Part shown: positions 310 through 10,759 of the stretch, in pieces
Numbering within the stretch: position 1 is the stretch's first letter
How the letters are laid out: every line of letters begins with the position of its first letter
Assembly: GCA_016213865.1 (NCBI GenBank)
Contig: JACQZL010000076.1
Coordinates: 1-15,937 of the forward strand
Source of the DNA: Candidatus Rifleibacteriota bacterium
GTDB taxonomy: Bacteria > UBP17 > UBA6191 > JACPRK01
DNA: 15,937 nucleotides
Direction of reading: 5' to 3'
The notes under the pieces: generated by a model
The model's input: only the letters and a program-made list of their open reading frames with translations
Told to the model about the DNA's origin: nothing
Database searches by the model: none
Made by a program: the position numbers and the translations under genes

Positions 310-2520
310 ATGCCCCGCATCCCCACCGACGAACTCGAGCGCCTCAAGCGCGAAGTCTCCCTGGAGCGCCTGGCCGAAGCCCGCGGCGTCGCCCTCCTGA
401 AGAAGGGCAAGGACCTCCACGGCCGCTGCCCCTTCCACGAGGACCGCACCCCCTCCCTCGTCATCGATATCGAGGCCAACCTCTGGCACTGCTTCGGCGC
501 CTGCAATGCCGGCGGCTCCGTCGTCGACTGGGTCATGCGCGACCGCGCCGTCAGCTTCCGTCACGCCATCGAGATCCTCCGCACCGACCTCCCCAGCATC
601 TTCTCCGCCCCGCCCACTTCCGCCGCCAAGCGCTCCACCGTGCGCGTGCTCCCGCCCGCCGTCACTCCCTCCGCCGATGACCGCGCTCTCCTCGCCCAGG
701 TCGTCGTCTACTACCACCGCAAGCTCAAGGAGTCCCCCGCCGCTCTGGCCTACCTCGACAAGCGCGGCCTGTCGGCCCCGGGCCTCATCGACCACTTCCA
801 GATCGGATTCTCCGATCGCACCCTCGGCCTCACCATCCCTGACAACGGCCGCAAGGCCGGCGCCGAGCTCCGAGAACGCCTCACCCGGATCGGCATCCTC
901 AACGCCGAGACCGGCCACGAGCTCTACCGCGGCATGCTCACCATCCCCACCTTCGATCTGGACGGTCAGGTCGTGGGCCTCTACGGCCGCCGCGCCAGCG
1001 AGTCCATGCGCGAGACGGCCACCAAGCACCGCAACCTCACCGGCGCTCTCTCGGGCGTGCTCAACCTCGCCGCCTTCGCCGCCTCCGAAGAGCTCATCCT
1101 CTGCGAGGCCGCCCTCGACGCGATGACCTTCTGGGCCGCCGGCTACAGAAATGTCACCTGCACCTTCGGCACCAACGGCTTCACCGACGAGCTGGCCGCC
1201 GCGCTGGCCAAGCACGCCACCAAGCGCGTCCTCATCGCCTTCGACCGCGATGCCGCCGGCGACACCGCCGCCGCCGGCGTCGCCGAGCGCCTCATGGCGC
1301 GCGGCATCGATTGCTACCGCATCCTCTTCCCCCACGGCCTGGACGCCAACACCTCCTTCGCCGCGCTGCGCATCAACCTGCGTGTGCGCGCCGACGTCGG
1401 CTTCCACGTCGACACCCTCGATCTCCTCCAGGCCCGAGCCCGCGCTGCCTTCGAGAAGGCCGCCGCCCTCGAGCTCGGCGTTGCGGAGGACTTGATCCAT
1501 CACGACCTGGCCGCCCTCCTGGGCGCCCTCGACGAGCTGCTCGTCGGCTACCTCGCCACCGTCAGCCGCAAGCTCGACAGGCCGCTCGCGCTGATCGTTC
1601 AGTCCACCTCCGCCGCCGGCAAGTCCACCCTCATGGACGCCATCCTCGACTTCGTCCCCGAGGAAGACCGGGAGCAGTTCTCCGCGCTCACCGACCAGGC
1701 CCTCTTCTACATGGGCGAGACCAACCTCGCCCACAAGATCCTCGCCATCGTCGAGGAGGAAGGCGCCGAGCGCGCCTCCTACGCCCTCAAGATCCTCCAG
1801 TCCGAAGGCCAGCTCAACATCGCCTCCACCGGAAAGGACCCGGCCACGGGAAGACTCGTCACCCACGAGTACAAAGTCCAGGGCCCCGTGATGATCTTCC
1901 TCACCACCACCGCCATCGACCTCGACGAAGAACTCCAGAACCGCTGCCTCGTCCTCACCGTCGACGAGAACCGCTCCCAGACCCAACGGATTCACCAGCT
2001 CCAGCGACTCGAGCATACCCTCGACGGCCTCAAGTCCAAGGCCCAACGAGCCACCATCCTCAAGCGTCACCAGAATGTCCAGCGTCTGCTGGCACCTCTG
2101 ACCGTCGTCAACCCCTTCGTCAACCAGCTCCGCTTCCCCGACGACAAGACCCGCACCCGCCGCGACCACGCCAAGTACCTCAACCTCATCGACGCCGTCG
2201 CACTCCTCCACCAGCACCAGCGACCGATCCTCTCGACCCCGCTTTCCGACGGTTCCACTCTCCGCTACATCCAGGTCACCCCGGAGGATCTCGCCCTGGC
2301 CAAACGCCTGGCCGACGAGGTGCTCGGCCGCTCCCTCGACGAGCTGCCCCCCGCAGACCCGCCGCTTCCTCGGTCACCTCGACGCCCTGGTCACCCAGGG
2401 CTGCTCTCACAACGAGTGAGACCGCCGCGACTTCCACTTCACCCGCAAGGCCGCCCGCGACTTTACCGGCTGGTCAGACTTCCAGGTGCGCACCCACCTG
2501 GACAAGCTCGCGAGCCTTGA
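310..2520 (+). CDS. CHC2/Toprim primase-ATPase of mobile element, 3' end frameshifted
   Basis: This is a DnaG-like primase with a fused ATPase domain, of the type carried by phages and integrative elements to prime their own replication. A CHC2 zinc finger has ligands C40, H43, C61 and C65. A Toprim fold follows with E266 and the DxD pair D312/D314 in FDRDAAGD. A P-loop (STSAAGKST, K438) and a Walker B-like ILAIVEEEG form the ATPase core. The ATG at 310 has AGGAGG at 297-302 with a 7-base spacer. The family-like reading stops at about residue 680, at a C6 run (2347-2352). Beyond it this frame gives Pro/Arg-rich nonsense to 2520, while the frame one base later continues sensibly (RRFLGHLDALV) but meets TGA at 2417-2419. 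The gene is therefore probably a pseudogene. Reconstructed, it would be about 905 residues and end at 3028, overlapping the integrase start. Confidence 0.85.
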   Translation: MPRIPTDELERLKREVSLERLAEARGVALLKKGKDLHGRCPFHEDRTPSLVIDIEANLWHCFGACNAGGSVVDWVMRDRAVSFRHAIEILRTDLPSIFSAPPTSAAKRSTVRVLPPAVTPSADDRALLAQVVVYYHRKLKESPAALAYLDKRGLSAPGLIDHFQIGFSDRTLGLTIPDNGRKAGAELRERLTRIGILNAETGHELYRGMLTIPTFDLDGQVVGLYGRRASESMRETATKHRNLTGALSGVLNLAAFAASEELILCEAALDAMTFWAAGYRNVTCTFGTNGFTDELAAALAKHATKRVLIAFDRDAAGDTAAAGVAERLMARGIDCYRILFPHGLDANTSFAALRINLRVRADVGFHVDTLDLLQARARAAFEKAAALELGVAEDLIHHDLAALLGALDELLVGYLATVSRKLDRPLALIVQSTSAAGKSTLMDAILDFVPEEDREQFSALTDQALFYMGETNLAHKILAIVEEEGAERASYALKILQSEGQLNIASTGKDPATGRLVTHEYKVQGPVMIFLTTTAIDLDEELQNRCLVLTVDENRSQTQRIHQLQRLEHTLDGLKSKAQRATILKRHQNVQRLLAPLTVVNPFVNQLRFPDDKTRTRRDHAKYLNLIDAVALLHQHQRPILSTPLSDGSTLRYIQVTPEDLALAKRLADEVLGRSLDELPPADPPLPRSPRRPGHPGLLSQRVRPPRLPLHPQGRPRLYRLVRLPGAHPPGQAREP

Positions 2521-3028
2521 GTACCTGCTCGTCCACCGCGGCTGCCGAGGCCAGAGCTTCGTCTACGAGCTCCTCTACGACGGCCAGGGCGCCGACGGCC
2601 GCCGCTTCGTCATGGGGCTTGTCGAGCCCGACACCCGCCTCATCGCCCCGCCCAACCATGCTGCAGCCTGCGACTACGGCGATAAGTTCGAGGGGTCGCC
2701 ACCAGAGTCCGAGGTCGAAGCCACGAAGTTCGAGCCCTCATCGAGCCCCCAAGGTGCCCCCATCGAGCCCCCCTTGCGGTCGCACTCCGTGCCCGAAACC
2801 CTGCTCCCCGAGCCTCCTCTCGAGACTCGCTCGCCAGAGAGCCCCGAAAACGCACATCTGGAACATCTCCCCGATTCGAAGCCGTACCCCAAGCCCGCCC
2901 CCCGCCGCTGCCTCCCACGCGCCACCGCCGCGATCGCCGCCGCGGCCCCCGTGGCGACTGCCGGCGTCCCGACCGTCCCGCGTCCCGGCGGCAACGGTTC
3001 GTCCCACCCGAAGGCCGCCCACCGATGA
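2420..3028 (+). pseudogene. Detached C-terminal part of the primase-ATPase
   Basis: This frame follows the in-frame TGA at 2417-2419. It reads RRDFHFTRKAARDFTGWSD and then HLDKLASLEYLLVHRG, a winged-helix-like segment that normally closes this kind of primase-ATPase. A long Ser/Pro/Glu-rich and Arg/Ala-rich tail follows to 3028. CGA to TGA would be a single transition in the stop codon. A GTG at 2486 could in theory restart translation, but it has no good ribosome site. The stop TGA at 3026-3028 overlaps the integrase ATG at 3025 as ATGA. That overlap supports this as the original frame and shows that the two genes were translationally coupled. Confidence 0.7.
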
Positions 3029-4230
3029 ACCCCAAGAAGGACCCGGCCCCCTGGCGCCCGCCCGACGTCGGCGATCCGGCCGATCCGCTCGGCTTCACCC
3101 GCGCCATCGCCGACTACCTCGAGGCCCGCGCCATGCGCGGCGACACCCAGCACACCCTCCACGGCAAGGCCAAGGACTTGGAGTACTTCCTCCGCTGGGC
3201 CGAGCCCCGCGGCCTGATTCGCCCCGCCGACATCACCCGCCCCATCCTCGAGCGCTACCAGCGCACCCTCTTCTACTACCGCAAGAAGAACGGCCGCCCT
3301 CTCGCCTTCTCCACCCAGCGCCACCGCTTGACCGTGCTTCGCAGCCTCTTCGGCTTCCTCGCCCGCGCCAACCGCATCCTCTACAACCCCGCTTCCGACC
3401 TCGACCTGCCTAGGCTGCGCGAGCGCCTGCCCCCGCCCGTGCTCTCCTCAGCCGAGATCGAGCAAGTCCTCGCCCTCCCCGACGTCACCGACGTCTACGG
3501 CCTGCGCGATCGGGCACTGTTGGAGACCTTCTACTCGACTGCCATGCGCCGCAGCGAGCTCGCGCACCTCAAGCTCCCCGAGCTCGACTTCTCCCGCGGA
3601 ACCGTCACCATCCGCTCCGGCAAGGGCGGCAAGGACCGCGTCGTCCCCATCGGCGAACGCGCCCTGGCCTGGCTCGAGCGCTATCTGGCCGAGAGCCGCC
3701 CCCGCCTCGTCATCGAGCCTGACGAAGGCTTCCTCTTCCTCACCTACCTCGGCCAGAGCTTCGACCCCGACCACCTCTCCTACCTCGTCGCACGTTTCAT
3801 CGACCAGGCCGACCTCGGGAAGTCGGGCTCCTGTCACCTCATCCGCCACTCCGTCGCGACCCTCATGCTCGAGCACGGCGCCGATTGCCGCTACGTGCAA
3901 GAGCTGCTCGGCCACTCCCAGCTCTCCACCACCCAGATCTGCCTCCAGGTCACCATCACCCGACTCAAAGCCGTCCACGCCGCCACCCATCCCGGCGCCC
4001 TGCTCAAGCCACCACGACCGCCCGACCAGTCCCCCACTGCCGCACAGGTCCCAACTCCGGCTCGCGACGACTCGGCCCCCAACACCCTGGCGGACTTGCC
4101 ACAGCCCGGTTGCGTCGACCCCTCGCTCGGTTACCGGGTCGAGGGTCTCCGTCGCGTCTTGCTCGCCGCTCTCGACCAGGAGGCCGACGACGACGCCCCG
4201 GAGCGCCCCGACCCCGGTGGCCCGATCTGA
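3025..4230 (+). CDS. Tyrosine recombinase/integrase, catalytic Tyr replaced by Cys
   Basis: This is a XerC/D-type tyrosine recombinase of 401 residues. The N-terminal SAM-like core-binding domain spans roughly residues 22-120. The catalytic domain shows Arg-I at R175 (TAMRRSEL), the beta-hairpin Lys in SGKGGKDR (K200), HLIRH with H271 and R274, and H297 in LGHSQLSTT. The box that normally reads TQIYTHV reads TQICLQV, which puts Cys306 (TGC) at the nucleophile position. TAC to TGC is one transition. The downstream RLKAVHAATHP signature is intact. A Pro-rich C-terminal tail of about 70 residues exceeds the usual length of about 300. The gene overlaps the primase frame by 4 bases (ATGA), so it is in the same operon. 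I infer it no longer performs strand cleavage, which fits the broken primase upstream. Confidence 0.93.
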   Translation: MNPKKDPAPWRPPDVGDPADPLGFTRAIADYLEARAMRGDTQHTLHGKAKDLEYFLRWAEPRGLIRPADITRPILERYQRTLFYYRKKNGRPLAFSTQRHRLTVLRSLFGFLARANRILYNPASDLDLPRLRERLPPPVLSSAEIEQVLALPDVTDVYGLRDRALLETFYSTAMRRSELAHLKLPELDFSRGTVTIRSGKGGKDRVVPIGERALAWLERYLAESRPRLVIEPDEGFLFLTYLGQSFDPDHLSYLVARFIDQADLGKSGSCHLIRHSVATLMLEHGADCRYVQELLGHSQLSTTQICLQVTITRLKAVHAATHPGALLKPPRPPDQSPTAAQVPTPARDDSAPNTLADLPQPGCVDPSLGYRVEGLRRVLLAALDQEADDDAPERPDPGGPI

Positions 4231-4267: not shown

Positions 4268-5236
4268 ATGATCCTCTTGTCAGCAAGAAGAGCAACGAAG
4301 AAGGATAGACCCGGCTCTCTCTGGAACAGCCGACCTTCCCTCTCTTCGCTGCTCGTCTTCCTTGCGTTCGCCCTGGCCGCCCTCGCCCTCACCCCGCGGC
4401 CGGCGCCGACGATGCCCTGCAGGCCCGAAACTCGCGTCAGGGGATCGCTCGCCGTGACGCACTCTTGCGGCCCGTGCTGCACCGCGTCAACGCCGCATCG
4501 CGTCTGGCATCTCAGCCTCGTTCTACGGCGAAGTGCGGCTGGTCTCGGGGTTTTCCTCTCCCCCGACCCCATCGGGTTTGCGGGGGGGATGAACCGGTAC
4601 GGGTATGTGGGCGGGAACCCGCTGAGGTACACGGACCCGCGCGGACTCTGGCGCCTCTCCTTCAACCTCCCCTACGAAGGCGGACCGGGATTCGGCTTCA
4701 GCTTCACCAACGAAGGCCTCTTCGTCGGTTGGACTCGGCTCACCGCTGACGGAATCGAGTTCACCGGTGGGGTAGACATCGCGCCTGTCCTGGTGAACGT
4801 CAGCCGCAACGCTCCCTCGGTTGCTGCAATGGGCCTGCCTCCGCTGACGCCCATTGGAGGGCCAACTCTATCAGGACCGCCGGGAGCACACTCGGGCGGT
4901 GCCTTGGTGATGCGGAGGCCAGGCTTCCAGCCTCCAATGTCCGGGTTCTTCTCGAACTCTGGTGGCCCAGTAAAGTGCGTCAAGCCGCCGACGTCCCCGT
5001 CATCAAGTTCGTCTCCGGCACCTCGCTTCACGCCGGATCAAGACGCCATTATCGACCTGGTACGAGATGCCGTAAGAAGACGTGGGGCACTTACGCAGTC
5101 TGAGGCAGACATGATCAGGCAATGGGCAGACCAGTATGGGCTCAGATTCAGAGGCCCAGAAACTCACCCTGCACGGCCTTTTGGAAGAGTGCCTCACATA
5201 CACGTCGGTCCCTTGGATCATATCGAGGTCAGGTAG
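4268..5236 (+). CDS. Orphan RHS fragment with candidate C-terminal toxin domain
   Basis: Only one RHS core signature is present: FLSPDPIGFAGGMNRYGYVG followed by GNPLRYTDPRGL at residues 96-127. Complete RHS proteins exceed 1,000 residues, so most of the shell is missing. The N-terminus has a signal-like hydrophobic stretch (residues 25-41). Between it and the RHS motif, another frame reads more like protein (ADDALQARNSRQG from 4405), which suggests a scar from deletion and indels. The start codon has no good ribosome site. The C-terminal module, about residues 250-322, is predicted helical and then carries GPETHPARPFGRVPHIHVG and a final DHI, so H310, H312 and H318 could be catalytic. I cannot assign it to a named toxin family. 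Local GC is lower than in neighbours (33 of 60 bases at 5041-5100 against 45 of 60 at 11281-11340), as is common for exchanged toxin tips. It overlaps the next gene by one base. Confidence 0.7.
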   Translation: MILLSARRATKKDRPGSLWNSRPSLSSLLVFLAFALAALALTPRPAPTMPCRPETRVRGSLAVTHSCGPCCTASTPHRVWHLSLVLRRSAAGLGVFLSPDPIGFAGGMNRYGYVGGNPLRYTDPRGLWRLSFNLPYEGGPGFGFSFTNEGLFVGWTRLTADGIEFTGGVDIAPVLVNVSRNAPSVAAMGLPPLTPIGGPTLSGPPGAHSGGALVMRRPGFQPPMSGFFSNSGGPVKCVKPPTSPSSSSSPAPRFTPDQDAIIDLVRDAVRRRGALTQSEADMIRQWADQYGLRFRGPETHPARPFGRVPHIHVGPLDHIEVR

Positions 5237-5738: not shown

Positions 5739-6399
5739 CAGCAAATGAGCGACCGACGCAGCGCTCAAAGGCGGCATCCAAGCGGACGGCCGCGGCAGCC
5801 GTCGACGAAACGCCCGGTACCTACAGGTGCCGACCGAAGCGAAGGGACCAACTACCGGACAGGAACGCTGCCAGAGCGTCTCGCACGGCGTCAGCTCTCT
5901 TTCGGGCGATCTGGGCTCTGACGCCGACGATCACGCGTGTGAGGACCTCCGGGACCCACGGCTCTGGGCGCAAAGCGAGATCGGCGGGCAAGAAGATGCA
6001 GAGCGGAGCGCCGCGGCAGCGCAGAAGCTCGGACTACTCTCGGCGCCTGATGCTGCATCTGGACTCCCGGTGAGAATAGGTCAGTCATCGCAACTCGCCC
6101 GAGACCGACCATGCACGCCGAGAGCATGAACTGCCGACTGACCGGAGTCCCGTCTGCGGCACCACCAGATCAGACAGCGACAGGTCAGACCTTGACCCGT
6201 GGACGAGAACTGCCGCTCTCCTGTTCTCTGTCTTTCAGTCGGCCTGCCATCAGGAACCGAGAGCCAGAAGACAGGAGATTCCAGACTTCAAACCGAGTCC
6301 GACGGCCTCGACCGTCGCAGCGTGCGACGAAAGTCGGAAGGTGCAGACCAAGCGAGGTTCCGCTCCCACCGGCTCACCTGACCCGCGGGCCCCACGCCG
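5739..6399. other. Gene-poor stretch with several inverted repeats
   Basis: No frame here has convincing protein character. The open frames are Arg/Ser/Pro-rich and change identity with frame, and none has a good ribosome site. Several short inverted repeats are visible: GACGGC/GCCGTC (5785-5790/5798-5803), TCTCCTGT/ACAGGAGA (6217-6224/6271-6278), and CGTCGCA/TGCGACG (6313-6319/6323-6329) inside TCCGAC/GTCGGA (6298-6303/6333-6338). None carries a U-tract. The stretch may be decayed coding DNA behind the RHS relic or may hold a structured RNA. I cannot tell which. Confidence 0.4.
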
Positions 6400-6407
6400 C
6401 CTTCACC

Positions 6408-6588
6408 GGGAGCGTCCCCGGAGCATGGGGCAGAGAGGACCAAACGCAAAGACGCCAGGACGCAAAGACGCCAGGAAGTGCTGATCAATAGGACCTTCTT
6501 TGCGACCTTGCGCCTTTGCGGCCTTGCGTTGAAGACAGGCACCGTGGCCACTCGACGACGCGGCTTCCCACGTTTCAGGGACGCTCCC
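6408..6588. mobile_element. 181-bp MITE-like element with 8-bp target duplication
   Basis: GGGAGCGTCCC at 6408-6418 is the exact reverse complement of GGGACGCTCCC at 6578-6588. Similarity extends to about 22 bp (18 of 22 matching) at the two ends. Both ends are bordered directly by CCTTCACC, at 6400-6407 and 6589-6596, an exact 8-bp direct repeat in the form of a target site duplication. The element is non-coding and holds a large internal palindrome. Ends starting GGG with 8-bp duplications would suit IS1595-like mobilisation, but that assignment is inference. The right-hand duplication contains the tamB stop codon, so the insertion landed just behind the gene without changing its product. 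Confidence 0.8.
6443..6530. repeat. CGCAAAG-rich imperfect palindrome inside the MITE
   Basis: The left arm 6443-6478 pairs with the right arm 6495-6530 at 27 of 36 positions, with a 16-base loop. The left arm contains a 16-bp perfect tandem repeat, ACGCAAAGACGCCAGG, at 6444-6459 and 6460-6475. A transcript in either direction could fold into a long hairpin between the convergent RHS/immunity and tamB genes, so it may act as a bidirectional terminator or RNA stabiliser. Confidence 0.7.
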
Positions 6589-6591
6589 CCT

Positions 6592-9500
6592 TCACCAGCG
6601 GAGCTTGTACTCCATCCCCACCTTCGTCTCGTCGGGACGTAGATCCCGCATCAGCTCTTCGCCCAGGGACTTCGTTTCGAGGTTCTTGTCGAGCGTGATG
6701 GAGAGGTTCTTCTCGACATTGTACTGCACGCCCAGGTGATCGAGCGAGCCCTTCTCGGAGCCGACCCGGCCGTCCACCGAGACGAAGACGTTCTTCGAGA
6801 TGTACTTTCCCGCGCTGATCTGCGGAGTGAGCTGCTCCTTGCGGTCGGTGCCGGTGCGGATCAGATTGGTGTCGATGCGGAACTCGTCCAGGCCCATCGC
6901 GCGGCGGACGGCCGCCCCCACGGGCCGATTGAGGAACTGCTCGTCGAAGCGAGCCGAGAGCGGCGCGGCCACCATGCGGCCGACCACGGTGTCGCCCGGG
7001 GCCCCGGCCACCATCGTGTCGCTGCCCGTTGCCAGCATGGCCAGGATCTCCTCCTGCGTGTGGGCCGGCAGGGAACGCAGCGCGAAGCTCATGTGCTCGA
7101 CCGGACCGTTGACCTCGACGTAGACCTTCGTGCGCCCGATGTCCCTGGCCCCCCGCACGCTGATGTAGGGAACCGACGCGGGCCTCCGCCGTGAGGCCTC
7201 GAGCGGCGTCTGCCACGGGAAGAGGTCCTCGGCCGGAGGCGTGCGGTAGGAGACGGTGCCCGACTCGACGGCGAACCGGTGTCCCTGGAAGTAGAGGTGT
7301 CCGCGCACCGCGTTCAGCTCTCCGCCGAGGGTGTAGCCGGGCCCCTGGCCGTTCATCACCAGGGCGCCTTCCAGCTCCGCGTTGACCGCGTCGGACCGGA
7401 CCAGGAAGTTCCCCTTCGCCTCGCCTCGGATCTTGTAGTGGACCGAGTCGGGCATCGCCGCGAAGAAGCTCTCGCTCGAGGGGCCGTCGAAGAGCGCCAG
7501 GTCGAGGATGCCCTTGTCGAAGGTGAAGGACGTGTCGAGCTCGAGCCGGCTCGGCGCTCCCCCCACGTGCATCGAGACCTTCAGGGCCTCCATCGTCAGG
7601 TAGCGGTGGCCGACCCTCACGCCGTCCAGTCCGAGCGCAACGTCCCAGCGAGTCTGCAGCTTGTCCGTCAACGTCACGGCGCCGCTGCCCGTGAGCTTGC
7701 CGCCGGCGAGCTTTCCCGTCAGCTTCCGGAGCTCGGCCCGGTCACGCGTGAAGACCACGGTCATCTCGACCCCCGTCGCCGTCAGCCCGGTCGACCCGAG
7801 CGGCACCTTTCGGGCCGTGGCGGCCAGCAAGCCCTGCACGCGCGGGGCGGCCGGAGTACCCGAGATCGAGACATCGGCCTGGAACGTGCCGTCGCCCGCG
7901 AGCGGCAGCCAGGAGACGAAGAGCGACGCCACCGAGAGGGGCGTGGGCGGGAAGACCAGCCGCAGGTCCATCGGCGCTTCGCCCCAGGAGACCGCGAAGG
8001 GCGAGAGCGAGAGCTGGATCGGGATCCGCCCGCTGATCGAGCAGTCCTGCTTGCCCTGGACCAATGTGAGCTTGTCGACCGACAGCAGGCCGTTGCGGTA
8101 CGACATGCGTCCGGCGATCTCGTCCAGCAGGCGCGCCGCTCCCTTACCGGCCCTCGGACTGGGCACGCCGCCGAGATTGGGGCGCGTCAGCCGCAGGGCG
8201 GCCACGACAGTCGGCCTGACCAGCGACCCGGAGAGCTGCAGGGTTCCGAGGAGCCGGCCGGAGAGAGTCGTGCCTCCGATGGTGTCGAAGTGTACCGGCA
8301 GGTCGGCCATCGAGAGCTTGAAGTCCCAGCCGGAATCGGCCGGCCCGGCGACGCCCTCGAACGTCACGGTGCCGCCGGCGAGGCGGATGGTCGAACGCTG
8401 GAAGACCAGATGCCCCTCGCGCAGCACGCCAGCCACGGGTCCGAGCCCCACCAGTGGCCCCCGCTGCGTGGTGAGAGCCAGCTCCGTGATTCGGAACTCC
8501 ACTTCGGGAGGTTGGCCCGACGCCAGCCGGGCCCGGAAGGTGCCCGCCGCCTTGCCGCCACGCAAGAAGCCACCCTGCGCCAGCAGGAAGGCGACGTCGG
8601 GCAGGTTGAACTTGCCGGTGGCCGTTGCGGCCTTACGCCCTTGCGGGTCCCAGACGACCGCCGCCTCGAGCCTGCCGCGACCCGGCAGCGTGAGCGTCAG
8701 GTCTCCGGCCGCCCCCCTGGGCACGAGCTCGACGCCGACCTGGGGCACCTTCAGATCGAGAGCCGCCACGACCAGGTCGCGAATCCGCGCGTGGACCTCG
8801 TGGACGCCCCCCTGGACCTTCACGTCGGCATCCGCCAGGCCCCGCACGGCGGGCTCGAAGGCCTCCAGGCGCAGGCCTTGCACCTTCGCCACGAGATCGG
8901 GATGGCGCCCGGTCTCGAACAGACCGGAGACGCGAAGCGTCTGGTAGAGCGCCGCGGGCCCCGACCCCTCCAACACGTCGAGCCGCAGGCGGCCGGCGGC
9001 GAGTCTCCCCGCTGCCCGGAGGTTGCCCGCTGCCAGACCCGCAACCTTCACGTTCTTGGCCTGCAGAGCAAACGTCCCTTCCGTCAGGACCGGCGGCCAG
9101 GCGGTTCCGCGAAGCTCGAGCTCGCCACGCATGCCCTCGCCCGAGAGGCCTTTCACGGGCGCCACCAGACTGAGCCACTCGATCGGCAGGTCTTGCACAC
9201 CGGCCTTCGCCCAGAAGACCCCAGCCAGGAGCGACAGCTCGCCCGTACCAGTGGCGGAGGCCTTGCCGCACCGGACCGTGGCGCTCTCCAGCCGCACCAA
9301 CCCCGGCGAGGCCTGGCCGCGCAACTGGCACTGCCCGTCGCCCGGCACGGGCAGCTCCAGGTGGTCCACTTCGACCGTGAAGGGCCAGGGGCCCGGGCCG
9401 GACAGCTCCACTCGCCCCGACGCCGTCGCCGCCGGTCCGAGCCGAGCGAGAGCGGGGACTCGCGCCGCCCGGACCCGGTCGAATCGGACGGTCAGGGACG

Positions 9501-10617
9501 GCCAGGCCTGGCCCGGAACGAACTTGCCTTCCAGACTGGCCTGTCCGGACAACGCCGACACGGTGGCCAGGAGCTCGATCGGAGAGCCGGTGCGCCAGGC
9601 GGCCGTGGCCCGCAGCACCTCGACCGGTCCGGGCCACGAAGGCCCGGTGACCGTGGCCCCCTCGACCAGCGCCTCCGCGTCGCTCGAGACATAGAGAGGC
9701 GGGAGGTTCGAAAGGTCCAGCCGGGACCACTCGCGCGAACGGTCCTTCGGGTCGGGCTCGTGCGTGCGGACCGTCCAGTTGCCCCTGCCCCCGACTCGGC
9801 CGGTAAGACGGGTCCCGGCCCACGCCCGCGGCTCGGAGGCGGGGCGTGCCACGGACGTGCCGGCCTCACCGGCGGCCGCGGAGGCCGTCGGCGTTGACGT
9901 CGGGGCCGTCCGGTCGACCCCGGCGGCAAGGTCCAGTCCCACTCCGGCTGCCAGGGCCGCCGGGTCCTCGCCGCGGAAATCTCGCTGGCCTTCCCAGCGC
10001 CAGTGGCCGACACCACTCTCGGGATCGTAGTTGCCCTGAACGGTCGCGCGCGCCGATTGCCAGCCAACCTGGGCCCGCCCAGCCAGTCCGATCGCGCTCC
10101 ACTCGAGGAAGACGTCGTCCAGGGCCAGCGTCTGGGCCTTCTTCCACGGGAAGTCGCCGGAGAGGACCAGAGTGCCCTTGTCGAGCGTGACGGGGACTCC
10201 GGGGAGCTCCTGTTTCAGCAGGCGGAAGAGCGGCACCAGACGGTGAAGCTCGATCTCGGCCCCGCGCCGTTCGACCTCGAGGACCGCATCCTTGACCTCG
10301 AGCTGGGTAGGGGCCAGCCGCCTGCGAGTGAAGAGCATCGGGAGAAGGTCGTAGCGAACGCGCACGGTCGGCAGGGCCACCCGTACGGCCGTCCGGCCCG
10401 GCACGCGGCTCACGAATTCGAGCTCGTGCAGGACCATGCCCTCGAGGAGGTTGCCCGTGACGGCAGCGACCCGTCCGCTGCCTTCGCCCAGCTCGCGCAG
10501 GGCCGTCTCGATGCGCATCGCGATGAACCGATGGGCGTAGGCGAGCCCGACGCCGAGCAGTCCCAGAAAGACGCACAGGCCGTAGAACAGCCGCATGTAG
10601 CGTGTCGAGAGCCTCAC
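6592..10617 (-). CDS. tamB: TamB-like inner-membrane-anchored protein (DUF490 C-terminus)
   Basis: TamB proteins are anchored in the inner membrane and span the periplasm. They support outer membrane protein assembly with TamA and are implicated in phospholipid transport to the outer membrane. With the GTG start at 10617 the product is 1341 residues, in the family range. An Arg-rich start leads into a single anchor helix (LFYGLCVFLGLLGVGLAYA, about residues 10-28). A very long region of repetitive beta strands follows. The C-terminal domain has the typical pattern: GHLYFQGHRFAVESGTVSY, SLPAHTQEEILAMLATG, ISAGKYISKNVFVSVDG, and a final aromatic (LRW). Start choice is uncertain: GTG 10617 has AGGT five bases upstream, ATG 10596 would begin right at the anchor, and TTG 10683 has no ribosome site. 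No tamA/Omp85 gene lies next to it. It is divergent from the AAA gene. Confidence 0.9.
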   Translation of the reverse strand: MRLSTRYMRLFYGLCVFLGLLGVGLAYAHRFIAMRIETALRELGEGSGRVAAVTGNLLEGMVLHELEFVSRVPGRTAVRVALPTVRVRYDLLPMLFTRRRLAPTQLEVKDAVLEVERRGAEIELHRLVPLFRLLKQELPGVPVTLDKGTLVLSGDFPWKKAQTLALDDVFLEWSAIGLAGRAQVGWQSARATVQGNYDPESGVGHWRWEGQRDFRGEDPAALAAGVGLDLAAGVDRTAPTSTPTASAAAGEAGTSVARPASEPRAWAGTRLTGRVGGRGNWTVRTHEPDPKDRSREWSRLDLSNLPPLYVSSDAEALVEGATVTGPSWPGPVEVLRATAAWRTGSPIELLATVSALSGQASLEGKFVPGQAWPSLTVRFDRVRAARVPALARLGPAATASGRVELSGPGPWPFTVEVDHLELPVPGDGQCQLRGQASPGLVRLESATVRCGKASATGTGELSLLAGVFWAKAGVQDLPIEWLSLVAPVKGLSGEGMRGELELRGTAWPPVLTEGTFALQAKNVKVAGLAAGNLRAAGRLAAGRLRLDVLEGSGPAALYQTLRVSGLFETGRHPDLVAKVQGLRLEAFEPAVRGLADADVKVQGGVHEVHARIRDLVVAALDLKVPQVGVELVPRGAAGDLTLTLPGRGRLEAAVVWDPQGRKAATATGKFNLPDVAFLLAQGGFLRGGKAAGTFRARLASGQPPEVEFRITELALTTQRGPLVGLGPVAGVLREGHLVFQRSTIRLAGGTVTFEGVAGPADSGWDFKLSMADLPVHFDTIGGTTLSGRLLGTLQLSGSLVRPTVVAALRLTRPNLGGVPSPRAGKGAARLLDEIAGRMSYRNGLLSVDKLTLVQGKQDCSISGRIPIQLSLSPFAVSWGEAPMDLRLVFPPTPLSVASLFVSWLPLAGDGTFQADVSISGTPAAPRVQGLLAATARKVPLGSTGLTATGVEMTVVFTRDRAELRKLTGKLAGGKLTGSGAVTLTDKLQTRWDVALGLDGVRVGHRYLTMEALKVSMHVGGAPSRLELDTSFTFDKGILDLALFDGPSSESFFAAMPDSVHYKIRGEAKGNFLVRSDAVNAELEGALVMNGQGPGYTLGGELNAVRGHLYFQGHRFAVESGTVSYRTPPAEDLFPWQTPLEASRRRPASVPYISVRGARDIGRTKVYVEVNGPVEHMSFALRSLPAHTQEEILAMLATGSDTMVAGAPGDTVVGRMVAAPLSARFDEQFLNRPVGAAVRRAMGLDEFRIDTNLIRTGTDRKEQLTPQISAGKYISKNVFVSVDGRVGSEKGSLDHLGVQYNVEKNLSITLDKNLETKSLGEELMRDLRPDETKVGMEYKLRW

Positions 10618-10759
10618 ACGGGACCTGCGATCAGACAGAGCCACCCGGCGCCACGGCGGCTGCCGGAGAGGGCACGGGAACAAGACCAGGAGCTTTCACG
10701 ATCGGGTTGGATGCCGGCGCGCGAGCCGCGGACCGCACTCGGGCCCCGGAGGCGTGCCG

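Follow-up and report, generated by a model that had tools for sequence, protein, structure and literature searches.

A MITE-like palindromic insertion at the end of a tamB-family gene and related elements with differing hairpin cores

Introduction

What is the 181-bp non-coding palindrome that lies just 3' of a tamB-family gene (window 6408-6588), and how did it come to lie there? The window, by which we mean the whole analysed stretch of 15,937 nt, is contig JACQZL010000076.1 of a Candidatus Rifleibacteriota bacterium (GCA_016213865.1). A preliminary description of its sequence had taken the palindrome for a MITE-like insertion exactly at the tamB stop codon, and had expected further copies in related genomes, each with its own 8-bp duplication, as well as empty sites in relatives and a transposase gene with the same ends. 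A MITE at a gene end is, as such, ordinary. The less ordinary part, and the one that could matter, is a possible exchange of cores between transposon frames.

Results and discussion

Structure of the element

The locus consists of the following parts (positions of the window):
6400..6407, no strand: target site duplication, distal copy, CCTTCACC
6408..6588, no strand: MITE-like element, 181 bp
6408..6418, plus strand: left terminal inverted repeat GGGAGCGTCCC, imperfect to 6429; left frame to about 6442
6443..6478, plus strand: core arm 1, ACGCAAAGACGCCAGG repeated, core type A
6479..6494, no strand: spacer between the core arms
6495..6530, minus strand: core arm 2, an inverted version of arm 1 with 75% complementarity
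6531..6588, minus strand: right frame with the GGGAAGCCGC motif common to relatives; terminal inverted repeat at 6578-6588
6589..6596, no strand: target site duplication, gene-side copy, CCTTCACC; contains the tamB stop codon (6592-6594)
6592..10683, minus strand: tamB-family gene (PF04357), into whose 3' end the element inserted; 1363-aa open frame with a putative start

The letters and coordinates of the preliminary description were correct, since both the 11-bp inverted repeats and the abutting CCTTCACC octamers could be re-read in the window. The terminal inverted repeats are perfect at 11/11 positions and reach 82% complementarity over 22 nt. The symmetrical non-coding interior that had been described was found as well: it consists of two 36-nt arms in inverted orientation, built from 8/16-nt repeats, the list of open reading frames holds none of ≥100 aa inside 6408-6588, and the frames 6111-6491 (+) and 6575-7216 (-) merely enter the element from the flanks. 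The window holds 19 inverted pairs that are perfect over 11 nt and whose starts lie 40-1500 nt from each other; among them only the 181-bp element has identical flanking octamers. Octamers agreed by chance at the element's spacing in 59 of 200,000 random draws. It is confirmed that 6408-6588 is a real MITE-like insertion and more than a chance arrangement.

For the RNA of the tamB strand (6400-6596) a fold of -90.8 kcal/mol is predicted; shuffled sequences average -76.2 (z -3.1), and 1 of 200 did equally well. For the plus-strand DNA of 6408-6588 the fold has a z of -3.6, which 0 of 200 shuffled sequences equalled. A scan of the window against Rfam at gathering score gave 0 matches. The predicted 3' hairpin could possibly affect the stability of the tamB mRNA.

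The tamB stop codon and the empty site

In the window tamB ends with ...CGC TGG TGA AGG, followed by the element, and the TGA at 6592-6594 is part of the gene-side CCTTCACC; the 8-bp target thus includes the stop codon, as had been noticed before. Due to this position the stop is the original target sequence, retained inside the gene-side target copy, and the earlier idea that the insertion recreated the stop has to be abandoned. In agreement with this, tamB of the two relatives L002 and L003 also ends with TGG TGA (...CGC TGG TGA CGA GG) and is not followed by the element, and both the reading frame and the stop of tamB in the window are unaltered by the insertion. The contig of a third relative, L001, stops inside tamB, so that L002 and L003 are the only ones readable at the tamB end, and both (2/2) lack the element there. 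A protein search with the TamB end returned the window's own protein together with 25 others (26 in total); the nearest of these others is 67% identical. A tamB scan of genome_contigs gave no match.

Related copies in other genomes

For the adjoining AAA ATPase gene, the nearest loci in genome_contigs (75-77% identical) belong to three MAGs labelled Candidatus Wallbacteria (G001-G003), and a search with the 181-bp element gave partial matches at both element ends in these three. A 32-nt pattern of one end (≤3 mismatches) matched 11 times, once in G001, six times in G002 and four times in G003, with 0 matches in the control, and was confined to these 3 of 381 genomes. The 24-nt end pattern (≤2 mismatches) had 19 matches in G001-G003, at least three of which (L042, L047, L048) are unlike family members; the reversed control gave a single match, and the 53 other genomes gave 2. 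With 3 mismatches, the looser end pattern matched 83 times in G001-G003 and 22 times in controls, and about a quarter of its matches are therefore noise. In viral_contigs two end patterns gave 0 matches each.

At the right end, 11 of the 12 compared copies share 26-30 of 41 positions with the window, and L081, which is off register, shares 10; random stretches reached at most 23 of 41 in 20,000 draws. The 13 left ends, one being a G002 terminus described below, match at 17-25 of 30 positions, and since random stretches reach up to 19 of 30 here, 4/13 are not above chance.

Duplications were counted on end pairs that had been picked by end pattern alone, with the flanks ignored, which gave 18 distinct pairs, 70-260 bp apart, among the loci examined. 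Identical flank octamers (8/8) are present in L014, L054 and the window; the agreement is 7/8 in L050, 6/8 in L017, 5/8 in L057 and ≤3/8 in the remaining 12. Flanks at 7-8 of 8 were thus present in 4/18 pairs including the window, i.e. in 3/17 others, and flanks at ≤6/8 in 14/18, while none of 306 cross-pairings of left and right flanks from different pairs was above 6 of 8. In our judgement some low-scoring pairs are chance pairings in long stretches and others aged copies; real members without a visible duplication are L010, L011, L045, L059 and L068. A hand-delimited list of 16 copies holds five at 7-8 of 8. If a 1-bp shift is allowed, an uncontrolled count, five more are added (L128 with 8/8; L010, L045, L079 and L112 with 7/8), and 6 copies stay at ≤6/8 even so. 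As flank similarity had played a part in the choice of this list, and the right end of L083 had been set after the match was seen, the flank-blind count of 18 pairs is used instead. Near-identical flanks were found for L017/L079 (G002) and L057/L088 (G003), which, judging from these flanks, look like one insertion inherited by both.

Of the multiple copies that had been expected, related ones are indeed present in G001-G003, but an own 8-bp duplication is visible in some only. The copies at unrelated sites in these genomes and the empty tamB end in 2/2 readable relatives are both traits of a MITE.

A candidate transposase partner

Five contigs of G002 begin 99-140 bp inside one common terminus, with a different flank in each, as is expected where the assembly breaks at a multi-copy element. 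This terminus and a MITE end of G003:C8 are 86% identical over 43 nt (E 2.7e-6; one end only). An open reading frame enters the terminus and stops within the inverted repeat, and the 40-aa tail of this frame is 100% identical to the end of the protein P0029 (566 aa). The best NCBIfam match of P0029 is ISKra4 (E 9.9e-56), with 189.6 bits just under the curated cut-off of 205; further matches are ISLre2 (E 1.5e-17), ISH6 and Pfam UPF0236 (PF06782, E 3.9e-10). The P0029 element is linked to the MITE by one shared terminus and the protein tail, and no complete two-ended autonomous copy was seen in the DNA. Hence, an open reading frame that enters the same kind of end does exist, as the preliminary description had anticipated, but the agreement is that of a single end over 43 nt.

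Among the 381 genomes the tail peptide of P0029 was found at the five G002 contig ends only, and tblastn of P0029 against the loci examined and the window likewise returned only G002 contig ends. A first tail search with a 232-aa carrier had given nothing. In plasmids neither the tail DNA nor the tail peptide had a match, and P0029 itself hit 24 records, all at <60% identity and none covering 80% of it. In viral_contigs the search for P0029 gave one stretch that matched a pattern and none that encoded a relative, and the PDB sequences contained none either. Among the open reading frames listed beside unpaired ends none was recognised as a transposase. IS66 was the only alternative transposon family searched for as a partner. 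Its one candidate, a single PF03050 gene in the four genomes searched (in G003), was rejected: the sequence around it contains no more than short approximations of the end, and the encoded C-terminus is unlike the tail peptide.

We propose that 6408-6588 is a MITE that depends for its movement on an ISKra4-type transposase acting in trans, and put the probability of this reading at roughly 85%, because a longer repeated element of G002 has the same end and its transposase P0029 is nearest to ISKra4. An ISKra4-type transposase (prokaryotic Mutator-like, UPF0236-related) would recognise the GGGAGCG ends, act in trans and duplicate 8 bp of the target upon insertion. One copy would have entered the last codon of tamB in the lineage of the window and, as the stop codon was inside the 8-bp target, tamB would have kept its stop and gained a hairpin behind it. 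From these comparisons we infer that a transposase of the P0029 type acts on the MITE, and that the insertion took place after the split from the two checkable relatives (L002 and L003).

For Mutator-like transposon families, PMC3942029 gives inverted repeats of 18-39 bp in which the terminal cytosine is conserved, and target duplications of 8 or 9 bp, which agrees with the present findings. The likeness to the ISKra4 family and p-MULT 4 includes the transposase profile match, the 8-bp duplications and repeats ending in C (GGG inward). The element of the window differs from the ISKra4 family in its 181 bp without a transposase and in its inverted repeat core, and P0029 is just below the family cut-off.

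Modular hairpin cores

Family members have common frames but differing cores, of which four kinds were found:
Core A, ACGCAAAG-type arms: the window; degenerate in L081 and L080 of G002 (in L080 only the right half is recognised)
Core B, TTCGACAAGCTCAGG-type arms: L014, L017, L045, L050, L057
Core C, GTAGGGCGGGC-type arms: L054, L010, L015, L021, L068 (far ends of L015 and L021 undelimited)
Core D, CACAGAG-type arms: L018 (cut by the contig end) and L049 (far end not found)

In addition, L059 is an 81-bp frame that is almost coreless.

Core B alone matched in 5/56 genomes (57 times in G002, 55 in G003, 48 in G035, and 6 and 1 in two more; controls 0). In G035, where L107, L111 and L115 are among the places, the 48 matches are to the TTCGACAAGCTCAGG-type repeat. 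When 80 B arms, from a biased set of loci, were clustered by their flanks, groups of 8, 8, 5, 4 and 3 and five pairs were obtained and 42 arms stayed single; most of these 80 arms therefore lie outside the GGGAGCG frame, and some in other recurrent frames. A sister form of MITE with GGGTGCGC ends carries core B inside (L108, L112, L128), and L128 exhibits the 8-bp duplication CGGAGCGA once one end is shifted by one base. In L023 a GGGAGCG half and a sister-form half seem to be joined through core B, so that it looks like a recombinant between the frames.

The exact core-A pattern occurs in 7/381 genomes (134, 21, 11, 8, 6, 1 and 1 matches, overlaps counted; controls 0) and proved better than a first pattern, which had matched in 2/56; in G001-G003 there is none in exact form. 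The 134 matches belong to G100, where ten places were examined. Two of them, L239 and L247, are members of a separate 136-bp MITE family with GTAACTGTTCACAC ends, a ACGCAAAG core and perfect 8-bp duplications (GGGCTATC and GAAGTAGG, respectively). L238 has the GTAACTGTTCACAC ends and the 136 bp as well; its flanks agree at 5/8, and the octamer GCCGCAAC is found again 5 nt farther outward. The other seven places have one end, degenerate ends or none. As core A is present in the GGGAGCG frame and in the GTAACTGTTCACAC frame, it occurs in at least two frames with dissimilar ends. Core C was found in 7/95 genomes, with 3 control matches, and core D is weak beyond G001 (2/95 genomes, the second with an altered repeat).

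A second layer of mobility could be added to the MITE reading, with which it is compatible: the element would be nested, a mobile hairpin having moved, as the inner core, into a MITE frame that was already present. We consider this possible, though doubtful. One frame holding four kinds of core, an almost coreless frame (L059), core B occurring by itself in G002, G003 and G035, and core A within GTAACTGTTCACAC ends, with perfect duplications at 2/10 places of G100, all point in this direction; however, recombination between shared hairpins would swap cores too, and L023 resembles such a recombinant. Either the cores are independent mobile hairpins that enter MITE frames, or frames recombine through hairpins common to both and so trade halves. 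As a tentative proposal, with odds well below even, the ACGCAAAG-, TTCGACAAGCTCAGG-, GTAGGGCGGGC- and CACAGAG-type cores may be portable cassettes that are swapped between unrelated transposon frames and distant bacteria, and many MITEs may be two-part elements, with a frame recognised by a transposase and a core kept by a second process. Should the cores be such shared cassettes, many of the hairpins between genes of uncultured bacteria that have no explanation so far would be tied to identifiable transposases, and their spread would be testable.

Other origins of the palindrome

A duplication of 8 bp is common to several IS families. The element might thus be a MITE of another transposon family of this kind, e.g. 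IS66, and the terminus shared with the ISKra4-type element might be secondary. A few copies begin with GTGAGCG or GTTAGCG, which IS66 ends presumably resemble; since a match of 86% over 43 nt ties the MITE end to the P0029 element, we regard this origin as unlikely. It is most improbable that the palindrome is no inserted transposon at all and was made by the host, as a 3' hairpin or terminator of tamB or as a REP-type palindrome: a strong predicted hairpin at a gene 3' end with an inverted doublet as core would suit this origin, and REP dimers within larger palindromes are known (PMC3733652), but no terminator-like site was found within window 6000-7000, two tamB orthologues lack the element, and the element ends recur at unrelated sites, several of them with 8-bp direct repeats.

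Comparison with known repeats

The element was also compared with further repeats in the literature. Prokaryotic MITEs (PMC10969869) are similar in size (50-500 bp), terminal inverted repeats, direct repeats, intergenic position and hairpin formation, whereas here members that have identical kinds of end differ in their kind of core, and the core cannot be recognised as a remnant of the transposase gene. REP dimers in palindromes (PMC3733652) share the inverted doublet in a larger palindromic frame, and core C has a GTAG foot like theirs; one frame with several kinds of core and the 8-bp duplications set the present elements apart. Nesting itself is not new, since that paper already describes REP dimers enclosed in larger palindromes. 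The Tn3-derived TIMEs (PMC4133298) are also non-autonomous, with mosaic content between transposon ends, but have 38-bp ends of the Tn3 family and 5-6 bp duplications, and their cores are plasmid modules and the like instead of hairpin repeats. A string search of the literature with six strings from the four cores returned no paper on bacterial repeats, judging by title, and one frame with four kinds of core together with one core in dissimilar duplicating frames was not found described in our literature search.

Additional observations

G003 and G002 contain recurrent near-perfect hairpins of about 60 nt with GGGGACACACGAC(C/T)(T/C)ATTTT (L141 13596-13657, L152 17345-17407, L177 16603-16661 and others), and a second set of hairpins with GTGGCGTCTACC(T/C)GTACCGGGTTTTC. 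In the window, a primase-like gene with a CHC2 zinc finger and Toprim (310-4230, plus strand) is followed downstream by a tyrosine recombinase gene, which suggests an integrated mobile element. The open reading frame at 4268-5236 (plus strand) is without a Pfam match and has a repeat at its end that we take to be of the RHS type; it is perhaps an RHS remnant.
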